A program made the translations under genes and the position numbers. Positions 1 to 10,036 of a stretch of DNA of 10,036 bases are shown here, in pieces. Source of the stretch: Elusimicrobiota bacterium (GTDB lineage Bacteria; Elusimicrobiota; Elusimicrobia; 2-02-FULL-39-32); assembly GCA_023249835.1 (NCBI GenBank), contig JAHFBY010000026.1, forward strand, positions 1 to 10,036, in the 5' to 3' direction. The stretch's first letter is position 1; each line of letters begins with the position of its first letter. The notes under the pieces are model-generated. The model saw only the letters and a list, made by a program, of their open reading frames with translations. It searched no databases and was not told where the DNA came from.

Positions 1-1553
1 ACGCTGTTGGTGGCGGAGAAGTTTGGCTACCTTTGATCCAGCCCAAAGAGTTGTGGGAACAAACGGGCCGTTGGCAAATTTATGGAAAAGAACTTTTACG
101 CATCAAAGACCGTAAAAACGCGGACTTTTGTTTCGCGCCTACGGCGGAAGAGGTGGTTACGGACTTAGTGAAGAAAGATGTCCGTTCCTACCGCCAACTC
201 CCAATTTTTCTTTATCAGTTTGCGAGCAAATTTAGAGATGAGATCCGCCCGAGGTTTGGAGTGATGCGGGCGCGCGAGTTCTACATGAAAGACGGTTATT
301 CTTTTCACGCTAATGATGAGGATTTAAGCCTTGCCTATACGCGGATCTTTGAAGCGTACAATAAAATATTTAAGCGCTGCGGATTAAAGTTTAGGCCGGT
401 TGAAGCTGAGGCCGGGGCCATAGGAGGCAACTATTCCCATGAATTTATGGTGCTGGCAGAAACAGGGGAAGAAGAAATAGTCTCCTGCGTTTGCGGGTAT
501 GCGGCTAACCTTGAGCGGGCAGAATGCGTGCTGCCTGCCGGCAGTCCCATTGAGTTGGCCTTGCCTTTGGCGGAATTTCCAACCCCGGGGGCATATACGG
601 TAGAAGCAGTAGCGCAGTTGATCGGGGCGCCGAAAGAAAAATTCATTAAAACCATGTTTTACGATACCGACGTTGGGCCTGTGATTGCGCTCTTGCGGGG
701 TGATTCTATATTAAATGAACCTAAACTAGTTCGTTCCTTAGGGGTTAAGAGCGTTGAAAAAATGGCGGAAGAGCGTTATTGTCAACTTGCAGGTTGTGCT
801 GTTGGTTTTGCCGGTCCAGTAGGTTTGAAGGACCGGGCGTTTGCTTTTGATCCCAAGGTTAGGGTGGTGGCGGATTATTTAGTGCAAGGCATTGTCAACG
901 GCGTTTCTGGAGCTAACCGCAAAGACGCGCATGTGAAAAATATCAATTTAGGCCGGGACTATCAGCCCGACGGTTTTTTTGATTTGCGCCAAGCTTTGCG
1001 GGGGGACATTTGTCCGCGGTGCAGCGCGGTAGGAAAAAATGAGGTTTTAGCGTTTTCGCGCGGGATCGAGGTGGGACACACTTTTAAATTGGGCACAAAA
1101 TATTCTGCGGCCATGGGAGCGGTTTTCTTAGACGAGTCCGGCCAGTCTGTGCCGTTTGTTATGGGTTGTTACGGCATTGGCGTTTCCCGGGTGGTGGCCG
1201 CTGCGATTGAACAAAACAATGACGCTAACGGCATTGTTTGGACAAAAGAATTGGCTCCGTTTAAAGTAATTATTTTGCCGGTAAATTATGATGAACCCAA
1301 TACTCGGCAATGGGCGGATAGAATTTATAACGAACTCCAAGCACAAAATATTTCAGTTATTTTGGATGATCGCTTGGAACGGGCCGGAGCAAAATTTAAA
1401 GACGCCGATTTGTTGGGAATACCTATTCGCGTTACGTTGAGCGAAAAAAGTTTGGCTCAAGGCACGGTCGAGTTTAAACTTCGCTCACAACCTGATCCCG
1501 AAATCCTTCCTAAAGATCAAATCATCCCGCGCCTCCGCCAAGAATTTTTTTAA
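1..1553 (+). CDS. proS: Prolyl-tRNA synthetase, bacterial type, 5' end cut by window edge
   Basis: Class II aminoacyl-tRNA synthetase that charges tRNA-Pro with proline in the cytoplasm. The frame is open from the first complete codon at 3. The TTG at 33 is internal and not the start: the residues before it still align with E. coli ProS, and about 60 N-terminal residues, including motif 1, lie outside the window. Motif 2 is visible as FRDEIRPRFG from 231, followed by a tRNA-synthetase-like REFYMKDGYSFH stretch. The segment between motifs 2 and 3 is long and carries the bacterial INS (YbaK-like, mis-acylation editing) domain, roughly 530-1000, with a lysine in KTMFYD. Motif 3 is GCYGIGVSR around 1164-1190. 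The anticodon-binding domain follows (PFKVIILPVN to the end). The stop is TAA at 1551-1553. Family assignment is very secure; the 516 visible codons fit a protein of about 570-580 residues. No sign of frameshift. Confidence 0.97.
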   Translation, partial: AVGGGEVWLPLIQPKELWEQTGRWQIYGKELLRIKDRKNADFCFAPTAEEVVTDLVKKDVRSYRQLPIFLYQFASKFRDEIRPRFGVMRAREFYMKDGYSFHANDEDLSLAYTRIFEAYNKIFKRCGLKFRPVEAEAGAIGGNYSHEFMVLAETGEEEIVSCVCGYAANLERAECVLPAGSPIELALPLAEFPTPGAYTVEAVAQLIGAPKEKFIKTMFYDTDVGPVIALLRGDSILNEPKLVRSLGVKSVEKMAEERYCQLAGCAVGFAGPVGLKDRAFAFDPKVRVVADYLVQGIVNGVSGANRKDAHVKNINLGRDYQPDGFFDLRQALRGDICPRCSAVGKNEVLAFSRGIEVGHTFKLGTKYSAAMGAVFLDESGQSVPFVMGCYGIGVSRVVAAAIEQNNDANGIVWTKELAPFKVIILPVNYDEPNTRQWADRIYNELQAQNISVILDDRLERAGAKFKDADLLGIPIRVTLSEKSLAQGTVEFKLRSQPDPEILPKDQIIPRLRQEFF

Positions 1554-1817: not shown

Positions 1818-1848
1818 AATCCCGGCTCAAGTAAGCCGGGATTTTTTT
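1818..1848 (+). terminator. Intrinsic terminator upstream of the giant gene
   Basis: AATCCCGGCT (1818-1827) pairs perfectly with AGCCGGGATT (1834-1843) around a six-base loop and runs into a T-rich tract (T at 1842-1848, more T to 1855). This is a textbook Rho-independent terminator on the plus strand. It lies 265 bases after proS and only 19 bases before the AAGGAGA of the next gene. It may end the proS transcript, end a short leader RNA, or act as an attenuator for the giant gene. The A/T-only hairpin at 1766-1782 just upstream does not pair with it in an obvious way. Confidence 0.85.
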
Positions 1849-1867
1849 ATTTTATTAAAATAAAAAT

Positions 1868-1874
1868 AAGGAGA
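1868..1874 (+). promoter_or_regulatory. Ribosome binding site of the giant gene
   Basis: AAGGAGA lies ten bases (counted from GGAG) before ATG 1884, slightly long but acceptable. The spacer is unusually C-rich. The frame has a stop at 1815-1817 (TAG) and no ATG, GTG or TTG between that stop and 1884, so this site fixes the start. Confidence 0.8.
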
Positions 1875-1883
1875 CGTCCCCCC

Positions 1884-1994
1884 ATGACTCAGCGCTTAAA
1901 TAATAAAAAACAAACCGCCCTGAAGAGATCGGTCAGCCTTATCTTGGCTTTAACTTTTAGTTATTCCAGCGTGGCCGCGCCCTTGGCGCAAGCT
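1884..1994 (+). other. Sec-type signal peptide, residues 1-37 of the giant protein
   Basis: The N-terminus has a basic stretch (R4, K8, K9, K14, R15), then a hydrophobic core (SVSLILALTFSYSSVAA, residues 16-32) and small residues at a plausible signal peptidase I site, A35-Q36-A37 before S38. An alternative cut is after A32. There is no lipobox cysteine. It predicts export across the inner membrane, which is at odds with the CoA-dependent enzyme domains downstream. An uncleaved anchor is also possible. Confidence 0.8.
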
Positions 1995-4900
1995 TCTATG
2001 TGGGAGGACCGCAAAGCAGCCATTAGCGATCAGGCCCTGGTTAAACAAAAAAATCTCCGCGGCGAGGATCCTAAACAACTGCTCTTGGCCTCGGCAGCAG
2101 GGCTCTCTGCCCCGCTGGGTTTAAATGACTCGATCAACGGTTCCGCGCAAACCTCCGGCGCTAAAATTGATAAAAAATGGATTGAAGAAATTTTAAAAAA
2201 GAGCGGTTCAGCCCCTTCCTTAAAAAAATCTGTTCAAGGATTGCCGCCGGAAGTATGGGAAAAAGTGCAGGCGGCTGGAGAAATTGAACGCTTCTATTTA
2301 GCGGCAGGCAATGAACTTTCCTTATACAACGGCAAACTTATCGCTAAACAGCCCTTTGTGATCTATATTGAGGACTTGCATGCGGTTTCCAGCGCGCAGA
2401 AAAATATTGCGCGCATGGTTGACGGACTCTTTGCCTTGGACGTAGGTTTCGTTGGTTTAGAAGGAGCGAGCGGTCCGTTGCCCGGTTTAGAAAAATGGCA
2501 AAATTATCCTGACAAAGAAAGCTTAATGCAAGCTGCCGGGTATCTCCTGGAAGGAGGGTTTTTAACCGGCGCCGAAGCAGCAGGTTTAAAATTGGCTCCG
2601 GGCAAAGCGCAATTTTTGGGTTTGGAAAGTCTGCAAACGTATTTAGATCAAATTGATTCGTTTAAAACCACGCTAAAAGAAAGCGGACCCGCAAAATCTT
2701 GGCTGCAAAAGATGGAACAAAACCTCGCGTCGCTAAAAGAAGAAATTTATAATCCGCAATTGCAAGAGTTAGATTTCGCGCGAGTCAGCTATAAAAATAA
2801 AAGCTTAAAGTTAGGTGGATATTTGCAGAAACTTGTGGATAAGGGCGAATTTAAGGATTTAGCGCGAGATTATCATAACGTTGAACTTTATTTGTCCGCC
2901 TACGCAATTGAAAAGAAATTAAATTTTAAATGGGTGGAGTGGGACCAAAAAAACCTTTTTAAACAGCTCACGGCAAAAATGGACGAGTCAAACTTAAAGG
3001 TTCTGCTGGAAGAAAGTTTGCTCTATCGTTTGGGAAAGATTGACTTCAAAGAATTTTATTCGCGATTAGAAAATCATTGTCAAAAGAGCCAGGTTCAAAT
3101 TTCTTCTCGTATGCAGAACTACATTGATTACGTTAAGCTCACAGATAACATTGACCGAAACCTTTTTTTTGCGGAAACTCAAAAACTGGAACGCGCAGTT
3201 CAGGTTAAATGGATTCATGCCCAGGCCGAAGCGCAGGTCGCAGCGCTTGACAATGATTTAGCCTTGGCGCGCAACGCCATGCAGTTCGGCTTGAGCCCTG
3301 ATGAGTGGAGCGAGTTTAATAAACGTGAACTTGAAATAGCCCAGTTGCGCGAACGGTTCGAAAATTTGCCAAAAAATCAGAGGTTAAAAACTTTTTCTGT
3401 CCTTGAAGTTGCGGCCGCTAAAAAACATTTAAAAAGCGCGGCGCGTTTTAGCGAACTTTCGCAAGAACGCGACAGCATTTTCGTGCATGGGATGATCTCC
3501 CATGGAACTAAGTTGCCGGGAAAAACAGGCATACTCGTGGCCGGCGGTTGGCACGCTCAGGGAATGGAGAAACTTTTTAAGCGGCACGGCATTTCCTTTA
3601 TTACTTTGCGGCCGCGCATTGACATGGCTCAAATTTCAGGAAACGTTGAGCCGCTCCATTATTTTAATCGCGACCCATTGCCGCTGGAAAAACTTTTTGC
3701 GCAAGAAAAAGTGAGCTTAAACGCTCCGGTGCCATTGGGCTCGGTGACTACGCCTGTTTCCCAGTCAACGGAAAAAGTTTTGACCCGTGTTGTTCCTTTA
3801 CTCAGTTTTAGCCGGGAACTAACTGCGGAAGAGCAAAGGGTAGTGGAAAGGTTTAAGAGCGGCAGGGCGTCCTTCCGCAAGCTTGGGGATCTGTCTTATA
3901 GCCTGGAAGATGGAATAGTGGCCGTGGTTAATCATTCGGATGATCAAACCCAGTTTCTGCAAGATCCATCAGCAGCGTTGCGCGCGGCTGGGATAGCCAA
4001 TGTTCATGCTCTTCCCGAAACATTGGTTACCGGCGTTTTACAGGATCCTTTAGATCCCGGCAAAAGTTTGGGTGTTGCTATGTTCAAGGTTAGGGAAACA
4101 GTGTTGGATGAACTGCAAACGCAAGTCCTTTCGATAGGCCGAGAATCTGCAACTCAAATTGCCCGGACTCAAATAGGTGTTGCAGTTGTTAATGCGAGCC
4201 AGTTTCCAGAAAACCCGCAAGAGGCTTTAAACGATTTACGGGGTCAATTTTACAACTATATTCGAGAGTTCTATCGGGACGCGTTTAAATTTTATAACAC
4301 AAAGGTCGTGCGGGCGGATCATCCGAACGCGCAATTATTAGAAGACGGGCGGAGGGCGGTTTCTGGCTCTACTGAACAGGGTGAAATTGATGAATCAATT
4401 TCTTTACTCTTTAGCGGTCAATTTAATCAGTATGCGCTGGCAAGGGCTTTGCGCCATATTGCAAATAAATTGGGGGATGCTTTGGGAATTAATACCGAAC
4501 TGGGCGCTTTATATCAAGAGCTATTTGAGTATGGCAGAGTTACTCCCAGAACCTGGACGACGTTTAAGAGGGTGGTGCAGGTGTTGGGGCAAATTTTTAT
4601 TCAGGACTTTAATGATCGGCAAGAGCAAGAAATTGTTGATGCTTTAAATATATACAAAAAATTGCACCCGGAACGGAACGTGAGTTGGGAGTTTAGAGCG
4701 GTGACTAAAGAAGAGAGCGAAGAGTCTAAAAAATCTTCCACATCAGCGCCTGCGCGGCGACTGCTCACGATCGTTGAACAGCTTACTCCTAAAAGGTTCT
4801 CGCGAGATTTGGCGGTGAGCGAAACCTTGGATGGGGAGACCTTGGTGTCCACCTATTACCTCTCAGATGTCGGGCAAAAGGGCGGCGCGGATATTAATGG

Positions 4901-7900
4901 CGGAACCGTAAAGCTTTGGATCTCTTCGGTAATGTCGGAAGAGGGCAGGAAAAGCAGTTCCGTTATTCAAGAACATACTGTGCGTTCCGGTCTCCTGGGA
5001 GTAAAGCTTTTGGAAGAGCAGGAGAAATTTTCCGCTCGATTTCGTAATCCGCAACAGGGAGAGTCCTCGGACAAAACCGTGGAGTCTGTTTATCGAGAAG
5101 TTGCGGGCATGGGACTTAGGCTTGACGAAAATTTAAGCGAGCAAGATTTTATCCGGCTGAAACAAGTAGTGGCGCCGCTATCGGTACAAGTGGACCCTAA
5201 AGTTGCGGTCGAATTTCCTGAAATTTTTGGCCTACGAGAGATCAATGGCCGTAAACTTGACGTATTGGGAACAATTGCCTCTTTTGCAGAACGATTTAAA
5301 AGATCGTTTTCCAGAATTCGGAAGGAAAGGTTGGCCCGCAGTCAAAACGGCACTCCGCAAGGCCATTTTTTATCGGCAGATTTAAACTTAACCGACGCAG
5401 ACGGCGAAACCCGGAGCGTGGGCAGTATCCGCGAAGGTTTGGCCGCTAACCTTAGGTACATCGCTTCTAAGGGTGAGGATCAGTCCGGTTATAGGTGGAG
5501 TTTAAACGACCTAAGAGAAAGCTTGCCTTTGCCGGCAGATGTGGTCCGTCCGGGGTTACAGGGCACGGGTCCGGCTAGCGAGCTTGGGATGATGATCCGC
5601 GCCATTAACACGAGCGGTTATGCTAAACCTCCGGCTTCTTGGATGTTTGACGGCGAGGATGCGCGGGGAGTGTGGGACAAAGACTTTTATGCGCAGTTAA
5701 GAAACCTCATGCTGCTGTTAAACGGTAAACTGGAAGGTCAAACTTATAACAAAAATGGAAAAGAGTATCGGGTGAACGTTCCTCGCGATTCCTGGCTCAC
5801 GCCTTTTTTCCGTATGCCGGGCTTACATTTGTCTGATGGGTCCATTCGACTGGACGGCCAAACTATCCCCAGCATGATCCCAGCTTTGATTATCCATACG
5901 CTGGGTAACTATAACGCCTTGAGCCACGCAGGTTCCGCGCCTTACTTTTATTTTCCGAAAGTGGATACCGTGGAAGAAGCTCTGCTCATTTCCAATATTT
6001 TAAAAGCCCTGGAAGAGACTTTAGGGTTGCCCCGAGGCAGCATTAAAATTGAGATGTTAAATGAGCGGGGAAGCTATGTGCAAAACCAGGAAGCGATCAT
6101 GTGGGTTTTGCGTAAAAACCTGATTGGACCCAACGTGGGCCGCTGGGATTATATTTATAGTTTGATGCAGATGTTTATGGACCAAGGCGTGTTCCCGGAC
6201 CCGGATAAAATTCAGATGACCCACCCGATCATGACCGAGTACACGCGGCGCAACGCGCTTCTAACCATGATGGCCGGAGGCTTCCCAATTGGCGGTATGT
6301 CGGCGGTGATGCGCAACAGCGCCCGCAGAGATAAGGACGATGCCGCACTGCATGCGATCTGGTTTGATAAGTTGCGGGAACGGCTCACGGGTTTGATGGT
6401 ATATAAAGGCCATTTACTCGATTCTTACCGGCAAAGTTGGGTAGCGACCGTGGATGAAGCTTATGTTGCCGCCGGTACCGACCCCCTGAAAGCAGAGGTT
6501 GACCAATTGCAGGAGTTGATCGGGCAAGCAACGGACGCTGAGCGGGCAATTTTAAGAACATTGGGACTCTTGAACGCGGAAGATAACATTCAGTTTTTTG
6601 AAGTGACAGACGACTATTTGGCTGAACTTTATTCTGTCGAGTCATGGCAGAAAATTTTGCAAGTGCCGCAAGTGCCGGGGTTAGGAATTAACCAGGTATC
6701 TATTAACGGTTTAGAAACCGCGATACGCATGGCCACAGACTACATGTTCCAATATTTAAACGGTAACGGCGCCGCGGCCATTGACGTGACTGCTGGTCCT
6801 TTGGAAGGCACGCGCATGATGAACGATTTGGCCACCTACGAGATTTTTCGCGGATGGCTCTTAAGCGTACGTAAACACCGCCCGCGGATTGTGGCTAACG
6901 GCCAAACGCAAATTCGGGCAATTGACGGCAGCCTTGTAACTGTAAGCGAAGGACAGCCTGTAGATGATGATCTTTTGCTTGCGCTGTTGGGACATCGCCG
7001 CAAAGCCGCAGAACAGTATTTTAAAGAGCACCCGGAAAACCCTATGGGTTTTGACCGCAGTCTAGACTCTTTGTCTGTAGACGTGCTGACGTTACAGTTG
7101 GGGTTGCCGGTCAATGGGATTGTTCCAATTCCGGGAACCGAGCGCGTGGCATACGGCTCTAAAGTTCTTATGGCGCTAGTGCAAATGGGTTTGCAGGACG
7201 AAGTTCCTGCCTTGCGCGAACGAGGGCGCGCTGATATTTTAAACAAGAGTTACTCCGAAGTCCTGGCAGCGGTAGAACGGAGGGAGCTTGACTCTTCCGA
7301 GTTGGCAAGATATAAAAAATACCAAAATATGTTAAGGGTTATTTTTACCGGATCCCCGGAAAGAGTCAATGAGTTAGAGGCGGCAGGTGAACTTCCCGTT
7401 CGCGCGGCTGAACTTTACCGCGACATTTATGATTTGCCTGACCCCCAAGAAGCGCGCGAAACAGTTTTTGCTTCCCACTGGTACGATTTGCCGGCAGATT
7501 TGGGGGAGATGTCGGGCGCTTATTTATTTTCGCTGGTTAGCGATTTGTTAAATTCGGATAAAACGGCCAGCGGTTTTCTGGGGATTAGCCTTAAAAACTA
7601 TTTAAATCGCGAGAACGTAAAAGATCAGGCCAGTGGTTACTTGGGGGAATGGGAAAATTTAAAACAGGCGGAAAAATCCAAGAAACTGAGTAAAGCCGAG
7701 TTTGAAAATATAAACCAAGGAAAGCGCCGAATCTTATCGCAATTAATTCAGTTGTTGAAAAAAGGCCTAAGATTAAACAGGTTTAATGAGTTGGCAATAT
7801 ATTTGGATACGTTGCAAAGCAACATTATAGAAAACAATGAAAGTTTGCCTTTAACCGTATGGGTTAACGCGCAGAAAGCATGGCAACATTTGCTTGCCGG

Positions 7901-10036
7901 TTTTTCTCAAATATTTGTTAAAACTGATATGGACAGCCGATTTAATGACGCTGTTGGGTTGGGCCTATCTTGGTTAGGCCAAGTGGGGATTAGGGTCTCT
8001 CGAAAGTATAGCGAAAAGGATAGCGAATCTGAAGCTGTTGAGACAGTTCTGCAATTAGACGACCAATTCACGGTGAATATAGTGGTCTCTGATCGCGGGG
8101 ACGGTTCAGGTAAAGAGTTGCGCGCGGGTAAAAGTTTTGACCGCGCCAAATTAATAGTGCACGAGGGATTGTTGAGCGCCACGATTGTGTTGGAGCCTGA
8201 CGCCCTGGTTTCCGGAGAGCTTGCATCTATTTTATTTGAAGAAATTAGTAAGTTGAACGTTTATAGGCGCAGTATTGACAAGGACCAAGATGAGGATAAA
8301 GCTTGGCAAGAAGTGGAAGAATTAAATACGAAATTTAGGATTTGGAATTCGCAAGGTGTGTTCCACGTTTGGGACCCGGCAAAATCAGAGCTAGTTCCTT
8401 CTTTTGAACCCCTTTCCAATTGGGAATCGGTTAATTTAAGCAGACATTTGGGGCAGATCGTAGGGCAAGACGCAGAGCTTGATGATATCAACGCGGATGT
8501 TCTTTTTTCGTCCTTGGGAACGCTCTGCGATGTTTGGGCGCATGACCCTGAGGCAATCATTGCCTTTACGGGAATTAAGGATCAGGACGAACTGGATCAA
8601 TTTTTGCAGGCCATCCAGCCATTTACCGAGATTTTAAACTATGGGGCAGGGATTATTCAGCCGGTAAAAATCCAAATCCTGCATGACTTCTTAGCCCGGA
8701 TAAGGACCGTATCCAAACATAAAAATATCCGAAAACTAATTAACGACCTCACTAGTCAAACAGCTTTACATGAATCTGGAGACGTGGTCTTGGACTTAAT
8801 TCATGGGTTGCGGGTGATTCACTCTTGGGAACCGGCGAACTTAAACTTCTTGATCGACGAGTTCAAACACGTTGCCAAATTGCATACGGAGTTGGACCCC
8901 CGGCATGCGGTTGAATTTTTACAGAATGATGAGATTGGTTATGCCCCTTATTTTACGATTGCGACTAGTAAGGGCAGCGTGCGCGTCGATTTGTTAGCCA
9001 CAAAGTTAGCCAGCCCGGACCAGCGTTCGCCCGAAGCTACAGTGGAAAAAACCGGAGAGAACCAGTATGTTCTAGTGATTAATCCCGCTATTTTGCAGCA
9101 AGATAAACTTTTGTCCGTCTTAATCGAAAAGTTCCACGTCATTGCGGCTTCGGTTGAAGAAAGAGATATGGATGAAGTTAAATCTCGCGTCATGCAAATT
9201 TTAGAAACGGCTAAGGAACGAAAGTTAGCTCATTATCCTGAACTTAAAACCGGGTTAAACCGTGAGGACGAGGCAACGATTGAAAAAGATTTAACCGCAT
9301 CTTTAGGGCGGGTTCCTGACTTAGCAGAAATTGAAACTGAGCGCGCTAAAAGAGAAGCTAATGTGATCCGCGCTTGGTGGAAGGAACAGGAAAAACGGGG
9401 AAGGAAAATCACTCGCCCTTATACTGCCGAGCAAGTCGTTGCTTTGCGGCATAAACATGAAGGGCGGGACATGCATTTTCAAAACATGATGGCCTGGAAA
9501 CTTTATAAGCGTATGCGCATCCATCAGTTGAATCGCACAGCTATCAATACTTTTGGACCGTTTGACGAAAATTCTTTAGAAATGATGGCGCGCGCTGGAA
9601 TGGAAGGCGTTTATATTGGAGGGTGGGCGGAATCTCAACGCCGCGGCGTGCCGGACGAGGCGCGCTATAGCCATAATTACGTGGCAGAGTCCGGTCAAAG
9701 GCAGGCAATTTTAATGCACATGCACGCTCGCCATCAAAAAGCGGCCAGATCGGAAATGACCGAAGAACAAAGACGAGTTAAATCAGAAGTGGACTTCTTC
9801 ATTCCGATTGTTGTGGATATTGATACTGGACATTTAGCTGAGTTGGAAATGGTCAGCGAATTTATGACTGACGGTGAGTATGCGACGCTTTATGCTGCGC
9901 TGCATGTTGAAGACCAGCCGCATGGCTGTAAAGTTTGCGGCCATTTGGGTGAAAAGGGAGTCATTGCTACGCAAAGCATGATTGATCGATTGGTTAACTT
10001 GCGTTTAGCTATGGATGTTCTAGGATTGGACACTTT
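1884..10036 (+). CDS. Giant exported multidomain protein with Tiki-like, malate synthase and isocitrate lyase domains; 3' end outside window
   Basis: I read this frame codon by codon from ATG 1884 to 10036 and found no stop: 2717 complete codons and an incomplete one. In order: signal peptide (1-37), Tiki/ChaN/EreA-like domain (about 155-585), unassigned region (about 586-1212), malate synthase (about 1213-1743), unassigned region (about 1744-2486), isocitrate lyase N-terminal half (about 2487 on). The two recognised enzymes make up the glyoxylate bypass: isocitrate lyase splits isocitrate into succinate and glyoxylate, and malate synthase joins glyoxylate with acetyl-CoA. Codon style looks even along the frame, which argues against a fusion artefact. 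A Ser/Glu/Lys-rich linker at residues 942-956 separates parts of the middle. The protein must continue at least 200-300 residues to complete isocitrate lyase. The start is secure (upstream in-frame stop, good ribosome binding site, signal peptide). The function of the whole is unknown; catalysis by either enzyme domain is inferred, not shown. Confidence 0.93.
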   Translation, partial: MTQRLNNKKQTALKRSVSLILALTFSYSSVAAPLAQASMWEDRKAAISDQALVKQKNLRGEDPKQLLLASAAGLSAPLGLNDSINGSAQTSGAKIDKKWIEEILKKSGSAPSLKKSVQGLPPEVWEKVQAAGEIERFYLAAGNELSLYNGKLIAKQPFVIYIEDLHAVSSAQKNIARMVDGLFALDVGFVGLEGASGPLPGLEKWQNYPDKESLMQAAGYLLEGGFLTGAEAAGLKLAPGKAQFLGLESLQTYLDQIDSFKTTLKESGPAKSWLQKMEQNLASLKEEIYNPQLQELDFARVSYKNKSLKLGGYLQKLVDKGEFKDLARDYHNVELYLSAYAIEKKLNFKWVEWDQKNLFKQLTAKMDESNLKVLLEESLLYRLGKIDFKEFYSRLENHCQKSQVQISSRMQNYIDYVKLTDNIDRNLFFAETQKLERAVQVKWIHAQAEAQVAALDNDLALARNAMQFGLSPDEWSEFNKRELEIAQLRERFENLPKNQRLKTFSVLEVAAAKKHLKSAARFSELSQERDSIFVHGMISHGTKLPGKTGILVAGGWHAQGMEKLFKRHGISFITLRPRIDMAQISGNVEPLHYFNRDPLPLEKLFAQEKVSLNAPVPLGSVTTPVSQSTEKVLTRVVPLLSFSRELTAEEQRVVERFKSGRASFRKLGDLSYSLEDGIVAVVNHSDDQTQFLQDPSAALRAAGIANVHALPETLVTGVLQDPLDPGKSLGVAMFKVRETVLDELQTQVLSIGRESATQIARTQIGVAVVNASQFPENPQEALNDLRGQFYNYIREFYRDAFKFYNTKVVRADHPNAQLLEDGRRAVSGSTEQGEIDESISLLFSGQFNQYALARALRHIANKLGDALGINTELGALYQELFEYGRVTPRTWTTFKRVVQVLGQIFIQDFNDRQEQEIVDALNIYKKLHPERNVSWEFRAVTKEESEESKKSSTSAPARRLLTIVEQLTPKRFSRDLAVSETLDGETLVSTYYLSDVGQKGGADINGGTVKLWISSVMSEEGRKSSSVIQEHTVRSGLLGVKLLEEQEKFSARFRNPQQGESSDKTVESVYREVAGMGLRLDENLSEQDFIRLKQVVAPLSVQVDPKVAVEFPEIFGLREINGRKLDVLGTIASFAERFKRSFSRIRKERLARSQNGTPQGHFLSADLNLTDADGETRSVGSIREGLAANLRYIASKGEDQSGYRWSLNDLRESLPLPADVVRPGLQGTGPASELGMMIRAINTSGYAKPPASWMFDGEDARGVWDKDFYAQLRNLMLLLNGKLEGQTYNKNGKEYRVNVPRDSWLTPFFRMPGLHLSDGSIRLDGQTIPSMIPALIIHTLGNYNALSHAGSAPYFYFPKVDTVEEALLISNILKALEETLGLPRGSIKIEMLNERGSYVQNQEAIMWVLRKNLIGPNVGRWDYIYSLMQMFMDQGVFPDPDKIQMTHPIMTEYTRRNALLTMMAGGFPIGGMSAVMRNSARRDKDDAALHAIWFDKLRERLTGLMVYKGHLLDSYRQSWVATVDEAYVAAGTDPLKAEVDQLQELIGQATDAERAILRTLGLLNAEDNIQFFEVTDDYLAELYSVESWQKILQVPQVPGLGINQVSINGLETAIRMATDYMFQYLNGNGAAAIDVTAGPLEGTRMMNDLATYEIFRGWLLSVRKHRPRIVANGQTQIRAIDGSLVTVSEGQPVDDDLLLALLGHRRKAAEQYFKEHPENPMGFDRSLDSLSVDVLTLQLGLPVNGIVPIPGTERVAYGSKVLMALVQMGLQDEVPALRERGRADILNKSYSEVLAAVERRELDSSELARYKKYQNMLRVIFTGSPERVNELEAAGELPVRAAELYRDIYDLPDPQEARETVFASHWYDLPADLGEMSGAYLFSLVSDLLNSDKTASGFLGISLKNYLNRENVKDQASGYLGEWENLKQAEKSKKLSKAEFENINQGKRRILSQLIQLLKKGLRLNRFNELAIYLDTLQSNIIENNESLPLTVWVNAQKAWQHLLAGFSQIFVKTDMDSRFNDAVGLGLSWLGQVGIRVSRKYSEKDSESEAVETVLQLDDQFTVNIVVSDRGDGSGKELRAGKSFDRAKLIVHEGLLSATIVLEPDALVSGELASILFEEISKLNVYRRSIDKDQDEDKAWQEVEELNTKFRIWNSQGVFHVWDPAKSELVPSFEPLSNWESVNLSRHLGQIVGQDAELDDINADVLFSSLGTLCDVWAHDPEAIIAFTGIKDQDELDQFLQAIQPFTEILNYGAGIIQPVKIQILHDFLARIRTVSKHKNIRKLINDLTSQTALHESGDVVLDLIHGLRVIHSWEPANLNFLIDEFKHVAKLHTELDPRHAVEFLQNDEIGYAPYFTIATSKGSVRVDLLATKLASPDQRSPEATVEKTGENQYVLVINPAILQQDKLLSVLIEKFHVIAASVEERDMDEVKSRVMQILETAKERKLAHYPELKTGLNREDEATIEKDLTASLGRVPDLAEIETERAKREANVIRAWWKEQEKRGRKITRPYTAEQVVALRHKHEGRDMHFQNMMAWKLYKRMRIHQLNRTAINTFGPFDENSLEMMARAGMEGVYIGGWAESQRRGVPDEARYSHNYVAESGQRQAILMHMHARHQKAARSEMTEEQRRVKSEVDFFIPIVVDIDTGHLAELEMVSEFMTDGEYATLYAALHVEDQPHGCKVCGHLGEKGVIATQSMIDRLVNLRLAMDVLGLDT
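2346..3638 (+). other. Tiki/ChaN/EreA-like domain, residues about 155-585
   Basis: The front half has VIYIEDLHA with E163, D164 and H166, then Q172, and a strand ending in GLEGASG with E193. The back half has GILVAGGWHAQGM with H557 and G560, followed by FITLRPRI. This pattern, an acidic-x-His strand plus a later GG-aromatic-His-x-x-G strand, is that of the haem-binding uptake/Tiki superfamily (ChaN, erythromycin esterase, TIKI proteases), in which these residues line a metal or catalytic site. Between the halves lie about 360 mostly helical, charged, Gln-rich residues, with likely coiled coil around 440-530. Similar uncharacterised domains occur at the N-terminus of large proteins of Omnitrophota and relatives, as far as I remember. 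Substrate unknown; superfamily call is by motif only. Confidence 0.55.
3639..5519 (+). other. Unassigned region of the giant protein, residues 586-1212
   Basis: I recognise no family in this stretch. It alternates mixed alpha/beta segments (for example IVAVVNHSDD near 674-683) with long helices (about 770-930), then a charged Ser/Glu/Lys linker at 942-956. A strand-loop-helix segment at about 1009-1034 (VKLWISSV to QEHTV) weakly resembles two segments further downstream (see findings). No transmembrane helix is evident, so the chain after the signal peptide should be soluble. Confidence 0.6.
5520..7112 (+). other. Malate synthase domain (A-like), residues about 1213-1743
   Basis: The domain can be laid along E. 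coli malate synthase A from PLPADVV...GTGP onward, through GKEY, SAPYFYFPK, LGLPRGSIK, VGRWDYIYS, GGMSA and NGNG to LLGHRRK...LGLP. The active-site pattern is kept: R1310 (FRMPGLHL), E1394 and D1422 (Mg2+ ligands, 28 residues apart as in the family), and the base D1648 in MNDLATYEIFR. R1310 to E1394 is 84 residues, the spacing I recall for malate synthase A. The signature RKNLIGPNVGRWDYIYS departs from the PROSITE pattern at two places (K for an acid/amide, P for L). Between D1422 and D1648 there are roughly 55-60 extra residues compared with E. coli. The reaction is glyoxylate plus acetyl-CoA to malate. Family call is strong; activity is likely but unproven. Confidence 0.88.
6659..6676 (+). 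repeat. Tandem 9-base duplication inside the malate synthase domain
   Basis: GCAAGTGCC occurs twice back to back (6659-6667 and 6668-6676), giving the repeated tripeptide QVPQVP at the edge of the domain's extra segment. It keeps the frame and is probably a small slippage duplication. Confidence 0.8.
7113..9341 (+). other. Unassigned region between malate synthase and isocitrate lyase, residues 1744-2486
   Basis: About 740 residues with no family that I recognise. It is mainly helical to about residue 2020, then has two stretches of beta-strand followed by helix: 2099-2123 (ATIVLEPDALV to FEEI) and 2394-2420 (YVLVINPAILQ to IEKFH). These align with each other without gaps at about 7 of 20 positions. 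The second contains E2415-x-x-H2418, like a zincin HExxH motif that lacks its first histidine. No membrane segments. It is far too long for a simple linker and probably folds into several domains. Confidence 0.6.
9342..10036 (+). other. Isocitrate lyase domain, N-terminal half, residues about 2487 to window end
   Basis: The segment opens with AWWKEQEKRGRKITRPYTAEQV, matching the WW...KRPYTAEDV start of isocitrate lyases, then NTFGPFDE, VYIGGW (2579-2581), IVVDIDTGH (D2645, D2647, Mg2+ region), HVEDQ (E2676, D2677) and KVCGHLGEK with the catalytic cysteine C2685. The helical insert before IVVDIDTGH and the TGH motif resemble eukaryotic and mycobacterial AceA2-type enzymes more than E. coli AceA. 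Departures from near-invariant positions are visible: GGW instead of SGW, TGHLA instead of TGHGG, KVCGH instead of KKCGH. About 230 residues are visible; family members have about 430-550, so the domain continues past the edge. A 2-methylisocitrate lyase or an inactive relative cannot be excluded. Confidence 0.85.

Follow-up and report, generated by a model that had tools for sequence, protein, structure and literature searches.

Fusions of isocitrate lyase (ICL) with malate synthase (MS) have been described in both domain orders, the nematode bifunctional enzyme being arranged ICL–MS and that of Euglena MS–ICL (PMC1630690). Among bacteria, an ICL/MS fusion has been named in Anaeromyxobacter dehalogenans (Kondrashov et al. 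2006; PMC1630690), and an ICL/MS fusion gene is assigned to genome 404589 (Anaeromyxobacter sp. Fw109-5) in a paper that counts ICL/MS among the fusions whose partners share an unstable metabolite, here glyoxylate, and that cautions that fusion by itself need not yield channelling (PMC4921024). Giant open reading frames have been reported in Omnitrophota (PMC10066038) and large proteins in PVC-related phyla and Elusimicrobia (PMC12057145, PMC11573180); the roles given for these giants are adhesin, coat and carbohydrate-degrading ones (PMC10066038, PMC12057145, PMC11573180), and bacteria with giant genes have been proposed to feed on or live in other cells (PMC10066038, PMC12057145). In the available main texts of PMC10066038 and PMC12057145 the word "glyoxylate" does not occur, nor do "isocitrate" and "malate" in the available text of PMC11573180. 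Our literature search (bioRxiv excluded, titles of subscription journals sparse) likewise returned no paper that mentions Omnitrophota together with both enzymes by name, none that combines Elusimicrobi* with the terms glyoxylate and malate synthase, and no title on giants bearing MS or ICL.

The window (the whole stretch of 10,036 nucleotides that was analysed) carries MS and the N-terminal half of ICL within a single open frame that runs off the contig end (table 1). That both domains share one frame was claimed by the original prediction and is borne out by profile searches, which place the first domain in the MS family and score the second at 117.2 bits to PF00463 (cut-off 26). With the nematode and Euglena enzymes the window protein shares two enzymes in one chain, in the Euglena order, and with the Anaeromyxobacter fusion (PMC1630690, PMC4921024) a bacterial host and the joining of both shunt enzymes, whereas its giant length, phylum and presumed surface location recall the large proteins described in Omnitrophota, PVC-related phyla and Elusimicrobia. 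Compared by description only, window-type giants differ from the nematode and Euglena enzymes in being bacterial, 2,143–6,934 aa long (where both ends are visible) and mostly furnished with a signal-like N-terminus, and they differ from the Anaeromyxobacter fusion in that the available text of its descriptions mentions no giant context. The source assembly is a draft metagenome-assembled genome (MAG; 475 contigs, 72.85% complete), a circumstance that favours the reading that assembly or binning fused two genes; against it, GC is even throughout the window (0.43–0.51) and both domains lie in single frames on 386-kb and 272.7-kb contigs of other MAGs, and we reject such an artefact as having a nearly negligible probability.

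Table 1. Features of the window, with positions counted from its first nucleotide.
Feature	Position	Strand	Basis and remarks
Prolyl-tRNA synthetase, 5' end off contig	3..1553	+	Upstream neighbour; Pfam tRNA-synt_2b, tRNA_edit, HGTP_anticodon; "proline" is a reading of the domain set
Terminator-like hairpin, then T run, between proS and giant gene	1818..1850	+	Read by eye from the sequence
Shine-Dalgarno-like AGGAG and spacer ahead of ATG 1884	1869..1883	+	Sequence
Giant open frame, 2717 aa, open at contig end	1884..10034	+	ORF translation
Signal-peptide-like N-terminus: basic, hydrophobic, APLAQA-S	1884..1997	+	Rule-based scan
N-module, common to many giant paralogues; conserved H, Q, EG, GGxH	2238..3626	+	Genome and database matches, alignment, model
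Stretch from N-module to MS	3954..5210	+	No Pfam match at E <= 0.1
MS module (~aa 1110-1769); putative catalytic R, E, D, D = aa 1310, 1394, 1422, 1648	5211..7190	+	Profile searches, alignment
Spacer from MS to ICL	7461..9326	+	No Pfam match at E <= 0.1
ICL N-terminal half (aa 2482-2717), cut by contig end; KVCGH at 9930-9944	9327..10034	+	Profile searches, alignment

The same combination recurs in other genomes. Eight giant MS/ICL frames were found in all, and the MS–ICL order, for which the original prediction suggested searching related genomes, is present in seven of them (the window, G005, G007, G002, P0001, G657 and G479), that is, in six besides the window, with the reverse order in OFTM55. 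In the taxonomic family of the window, MS and ICL lie in single frames of 6,934 aa in G005 (JACPBF010000016.1) and, within the same genus, of 6,139 aa in G007 (MGUU01000016.1). A third Elusimicrobia contig (G002; JAHFCA010000181.1) holds both domains in a 1,057-aa frame cut at both contig ends, with the remainder of ICL on a different contig, and a 2,838-aa database protein (P0001) carries both as well. The window ICL half, used as query, matched in 13 of 60 genomes, its own included. MS-family matches occur in 37 of 340 genomes of the phylum (30 above the family cut-off) and ICL-family matches in 42 of 235 genomes of the class. The giant frames contain the only MS- or ICL-family matches found in G005 (98% complete) and G007 (96%); stand-alone MS or ICL is also absent from the window's own genome, which at 73% completeness is weak evidence. 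In three genomes of the family (genus g2; G001, G006, G008), MS and ICL occupy separate frames of ordinary length or cut by contigs. Separate genes in independent genomes had been named as an argument against the fusion; they exist, but only in relatives outside the giants, and the fusion itself stands. As a separate observation, G007 encodes three consecutive giants on contig C16 (206904-230966, 232571-250987 and ~251800 upward; 8,021, 6,139 and 10,747 aa), all of which contain an MS-like stretch; the first of them (8,021 aa) additionally carries phosphoglycerate mutase (iPGM) together with an AprA-like methyltransferase.

In a sample of Omnitrophota, the phylum of OFTM55, MS-family matches were obtained in 19 of 384 genomes, seven of them in frames longer than 1,500 aa (G657, G343, which is OFTM55, G479, G504, G348, G383 and G578, the last with a match below the family cut-off), and two further MS frames (G345, G543) end at contig edges. 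A single frame holds both enzymes in G657, G479 and OFTM55; ICL lies in a separate frame of more than 1,700 aa in G348, G383 and G543 (the MS and ICL frames of G543 could be one gene, the MS frame being cut by the contig end), and genome searches of G504 and G578 gave no ICL match. In G345 the C-terminus of ICL runs into an overlapping second frame containing MS (L164 6250-9969 +, 9888-11699 +), an overlap that may reflect a frameshift, an assembly error or recoding.

The window MS has the TIM barrel and C-terminal domain of its family, and alignment places in it all four residues whose catalytic roles we presume (R166, E250, D278 and D447 in E. coli numbering; the positions, in contrast to the roles, are computed). 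R166, E250 and D278 are conserved in 13/13 giants and D447 in all 11 with coverage of the site, of which 10 have a replacement at E446, the residue preceding it. At 140.5 bits to TIGR01344 the window domain lies below the NCBIfam malate synthase A equivalog cut-off of 594.5, and its branch in the MS tree is long; it is best read as having the family fold and residues but as belonging to a divergent subfamily, not to malate synthase A proper. Simple Nei-Gojobori counts on a single pair of giants, G005 and G007, gave a dN/dS of 0.056 (0.035-0.084) for MS (0.031-0.110 in 150-codon windows), against 0.148 for the stretch before MS, 0.186 for a glutamate dehydrogenase part, 0.248 for the N-module, 0.361 for a fructose-bisphosphatase (FBPase) part and 0.304 after ICL. 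Within these two giants, constraint is clearly tightest on MS, which is under strong purifying selection.

For ICL, the window match covers only positions 2–224 of the 526 of PF00463, and no remainder was found on the contigs of its genome with PF00463 or with the middle-to-end part of the G005 ICL as query (a search run without a positive control). Among the checked sites, whose roles we again assume while their positions are computed, D108, D157, H184, K193, C195, G196 and H197 are conserved in 12/12 giant ICLs and K194 in 11/12, the exception being the window, in which K194 is Val and the signature reads KVCGH against KKCGH in 11/11 other giants. At E159, Asp is found in every one of the 12 giants and in 5/5 stand-alone kin, and S91 and Q94 vary. 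ICL is matched in four separate stretches both in G005 and in G007. Between these two, the dN/dS of the whole ICL is 0.168 (0.123-0.216) and that of a 150-codon window around the signature 0.038; taken over its full length, ICL shows no tighter constraint than glutamate dehydrogenase or the pre-MS stretch.

Several giants contain further enzymes. The 3,587-aa frame of OFTM55 (L163 5444-16204 -) holds, in order, ICL, MS, a GTP-type PEP carboxykinase (PEPCK) and glutamate dehydrogenase; its PEPCK has both domains (E 3.9e-91 and 1.2e-54) and aligns through the P-loop with solved enzymes, and the same genome holds a second, ordinary PEPCK gene of 596 aa. PEPCK precedes MS in a 4,114-aa frame of G504, in whose genome no GTP-PEPCK match was found beyond the giant's own. 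Glutamate dehydrogenase and FBPase lie upstream of MS in the G005 frame; FBPase is also present in the G007 giant, of which the first 1,330 residues align with G005 (a Pfam scan covered the rest), although the FBPase match in both is modest (best solved relative at E 9.6e-15) and weakly constrained. MS is accompanied by glutamate dehydrogenase in G348 and by a class I aldolase in G383, and a 3,897-aa protein found via the N-module alone (P0128) carries a GAPDH C-terminal domain, a GlpX-type FBPase, a class I aldolase and triosephosphate isomerase (TIM). Pfam revealed no additional metabolic enzyme in P0001, G657 and G479 or in the frames of G002 and the window, both of which are truncated. The giants were picked for MS or ICL content, and we claim no enrichment. 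The G479 giant (L175 4228-17247 -) has, ahead of MS, a phosphopantetheine attachment domain (aa 1760-1822). Frames with several enzymes, such as the ICL–MS–PEPCK–glutamate dehydrogenase frame, and the long spacers between modules that lack a Pfam match would suit a polyprotein cleaved after translation into MS, ICL and other enzymes; the signal-like start described below speaks against a cytoplasmic polyprotein, and we regard cleavage as highly improbable.

Some modules, such as the weakly constrained FBPase and the duplicated PEPCK, may have lost their original job. These two modules, the K194 replacement in the window, the division of ICL into four matched stretches, and the ankyrin, LVIVD and HEAT repeats in other giants of the window genome are all consistent with repurposed MS and ICL folds, mostly non-catalytic, that are kept in a surface protein for ligand binding or as structural elements. 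Yet the catalytic residues are conserved in 13/13 MS and at nearly all checked sites in the 12 ICL modules, and selection is strongest precisely in MS and around the ICL signature, so that we consider wholesale repurposing distinctly unlikely and favour working enzyme modules.

The closest relatives of the giant MS outside the giants are stand-alone enzymes. A scan of named genomes yielded 24 loci, namely six giants or parts of them (L109, L111, L112, L113, L116, L117), seven stand-alone MS (L106, L107, L108, L110, L114, L115, L118) and 11 weaker ones (L119-L129). The stand-alone MS, of ~700 aa, share 41–43% identity with the window MS over ~640–700 residues and come from genomes labelled Lindowbacteria (L114), Acidobacteria, Verrucomicrobia and others, MAG labels that may be wrong. 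An ICL gene (frames of ~600–720 aa) directly follows in 5/7 of these loci, which is the MS–ICL order of most giants; L110 and L115 have no adjoining ICL, and no ICL match was found in their genomes. These pairs differ from the giants in being two genes and in lacking a signal-like start in 7/7 MS and 4/5 ICL frames.

Compact fusions of 875–922 aa, in which MS is followed by an ICL-family lyase in one chain, account for 47 among the 120 clusters listed (P0002-P0048) from 4,284 matches to a G218 query; several of these rows are named Elusimicrobia bacterium, the fusions occur in an Elusimicrobia family other than that of the window, and six frames of this type were inspected in family f8. Together with the published Anaeromyxobacter fusions (PMC1630690, PMC4921024), they overturn the statement in the original prediction that bacterial fusions of this kind were unknown. 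Unlike the giants, the compact fusions form their own branch in both the MS and the ICL tree and have a signal-like start in 0/5 cases. All five aligned (among L086 610-3390 + and P0002-P0048) read RTCGH in place of KKCGH, and, given this motif, their lyase may act on another substrate.

In the MS tree, the window, G005, G007, G002, OFTM55, G345 and G348 group with the stand-alone MS, with G504 and G383 nearby and P0001/G479 and G657/G543 elsewhere; in the ICL tree, unlike the MS tree, G657, G543 and G479 fall with G005/G007, and the window ICL, which covers only 32% of the kept columns, falls with L108, G348 and P0001. This discord may reflect shuffling or long-branch error. A single clade is rejected by the AU test both for giant MS (p 6e-16) and for giant ICL (p 2e-53), and neither tree supports descent of the giants from the compact fusion. 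On the simplest reading, MS–ICL gene pairs became incorporated into giant genes, and this probably happened repeatedly; both trees are long-branched and, as the tool warned, some joins may be false, so that any count of origins is provisional.

The N-terminus of the window protein fits a simple, home-made signal-peptide rule (basic n-region, hydrophobic core, AxA site; not SignalP), a rule that also fires in 14/66 background ORFs. Similar starts occur in G005 and G007, and by the same rule in 12/14 giants bearing MS or ICL, in 15/22 large ORFs of own-genome contigs, many of them N-module giants, and in 1/20 stand-alone or compact enzymes. The N-module has 33 matches in its own genome, itself counted, and 25 database proteins match it, placing the window giant, as far as homology can tell, in a large paralogous family of giants. 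A fold search of the N-module returned only middling matches, to an erythromycin-esterase-like fold, and we therefore claim no function for it. Among 26 large frames on 20 contigs of the own genome, most with an N-module match and many cut by contig ends, none of the 17 Pfam families found is a central-metabolism enzyme, and of the 25 database relatives one (P0128) has four such enzymes, P0144 a glycogen-phosphorylase-like domain and P0137 a DeoC-type aldolase domain; these data do not support gluconeogenic enzymes as a general feature of the N-module family. Two N-module giants of the genome have ankyrin repeats (L206, G000:C9, 1662-7106 -; L197, G000:C38, 2284-7332 +), and P0137 (1,683 aa) joins its DeoC/LacD-type aldolase to a signal peptidase II domain. 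The mitochondrial-carrier family PF00153 is mostly eukaryotic, and its repeats (three stretches, E 2.5e-32) follow a partial N-module in L212 (G000:C357, 3-3104 +).

We hence propose, at a confidence that we would call evenly poised, that the window protein is a giant that is exported or tethered and in which the MS and ICL modules work; we infer export, activity, the hand-over of glyoxylate and the completeness of the window ICL. The signal-like N-terminus and shared N-module would take the giant across the inner membrane or tether it there, and each module would fold and retain its own chemistry. ICL would convert isocitrate to succinate and glyoxylate, and MS would condense glyoxylate with acetyl-CoA to malate, such that in series the two would consume a reactive intermediate within one polypeptide. 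Glyoxylate-shunt enzymes are normally intracellular, and since the substrates, acetyl-CoA and isocitrate, reside in the cytoplasm, an exported site is hard to understand; this explanation is weakest on location. One may speculate that both substrates come from another cell, if the hosts feed on or live in others.

The location of the substrates would be better met by a bifunctional enzyme that sits in the cytoplasm on a giant scaffold and simply supplies MS and ICL to the glyoxylate shunt of its own cell, its hydrophobic N-terminus being a membrane anchor or unused for export, and the conserved catalytic residues of MS and ICL, the absence from G005 and G007 of further MS or ICL matches and the listing of ICL/MS as a fusion around unstable glyoxylate (PMC4921024) are in keeping with such an enzyme. 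We nonetheless hold it to be doubtful: basic-hydrophobic-AxA starts are present in 12/14 giants and, by eye, in many own-genome paralogues, whereas 19/20 stand-alone or compact enzymes lack them. The original prediction was right about a real fusion and contained neither the signal-like start, nor the paralogous giant family, nor the extra enzymes of relatives; as far as the literature searched extends, these starts, the family of the window giant and the added PEPCK, glutamate dehydrogenase, FBPase or aldolase are new.

More broadly, Elusimicrobiota and Omnitrophota may export giants with active sets of ICL, MS, PEPCK, glutamate dehydrogenase, FBPase, aldolase, GAPDH and TIM, so that part of central carbon metabolism would be extracytoplasmic (on the cell surface, within the periplasm, or using material from another cell), with MS–ICL built in more than one time; we advance this tentatively, as less probable than its contrary. 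The available texts describe giant genes as encoding surface or adhesion proteins in which few domains can be recognised, and the short list of published bacterial MS–ICL fusions is extended here by frames with either order. They raise the question of the site where CoA-dependent chemistry could occur, and conserved, selected metabolic enzymes in signal-bearing giants offer a testable biochemical handle on these proteins.
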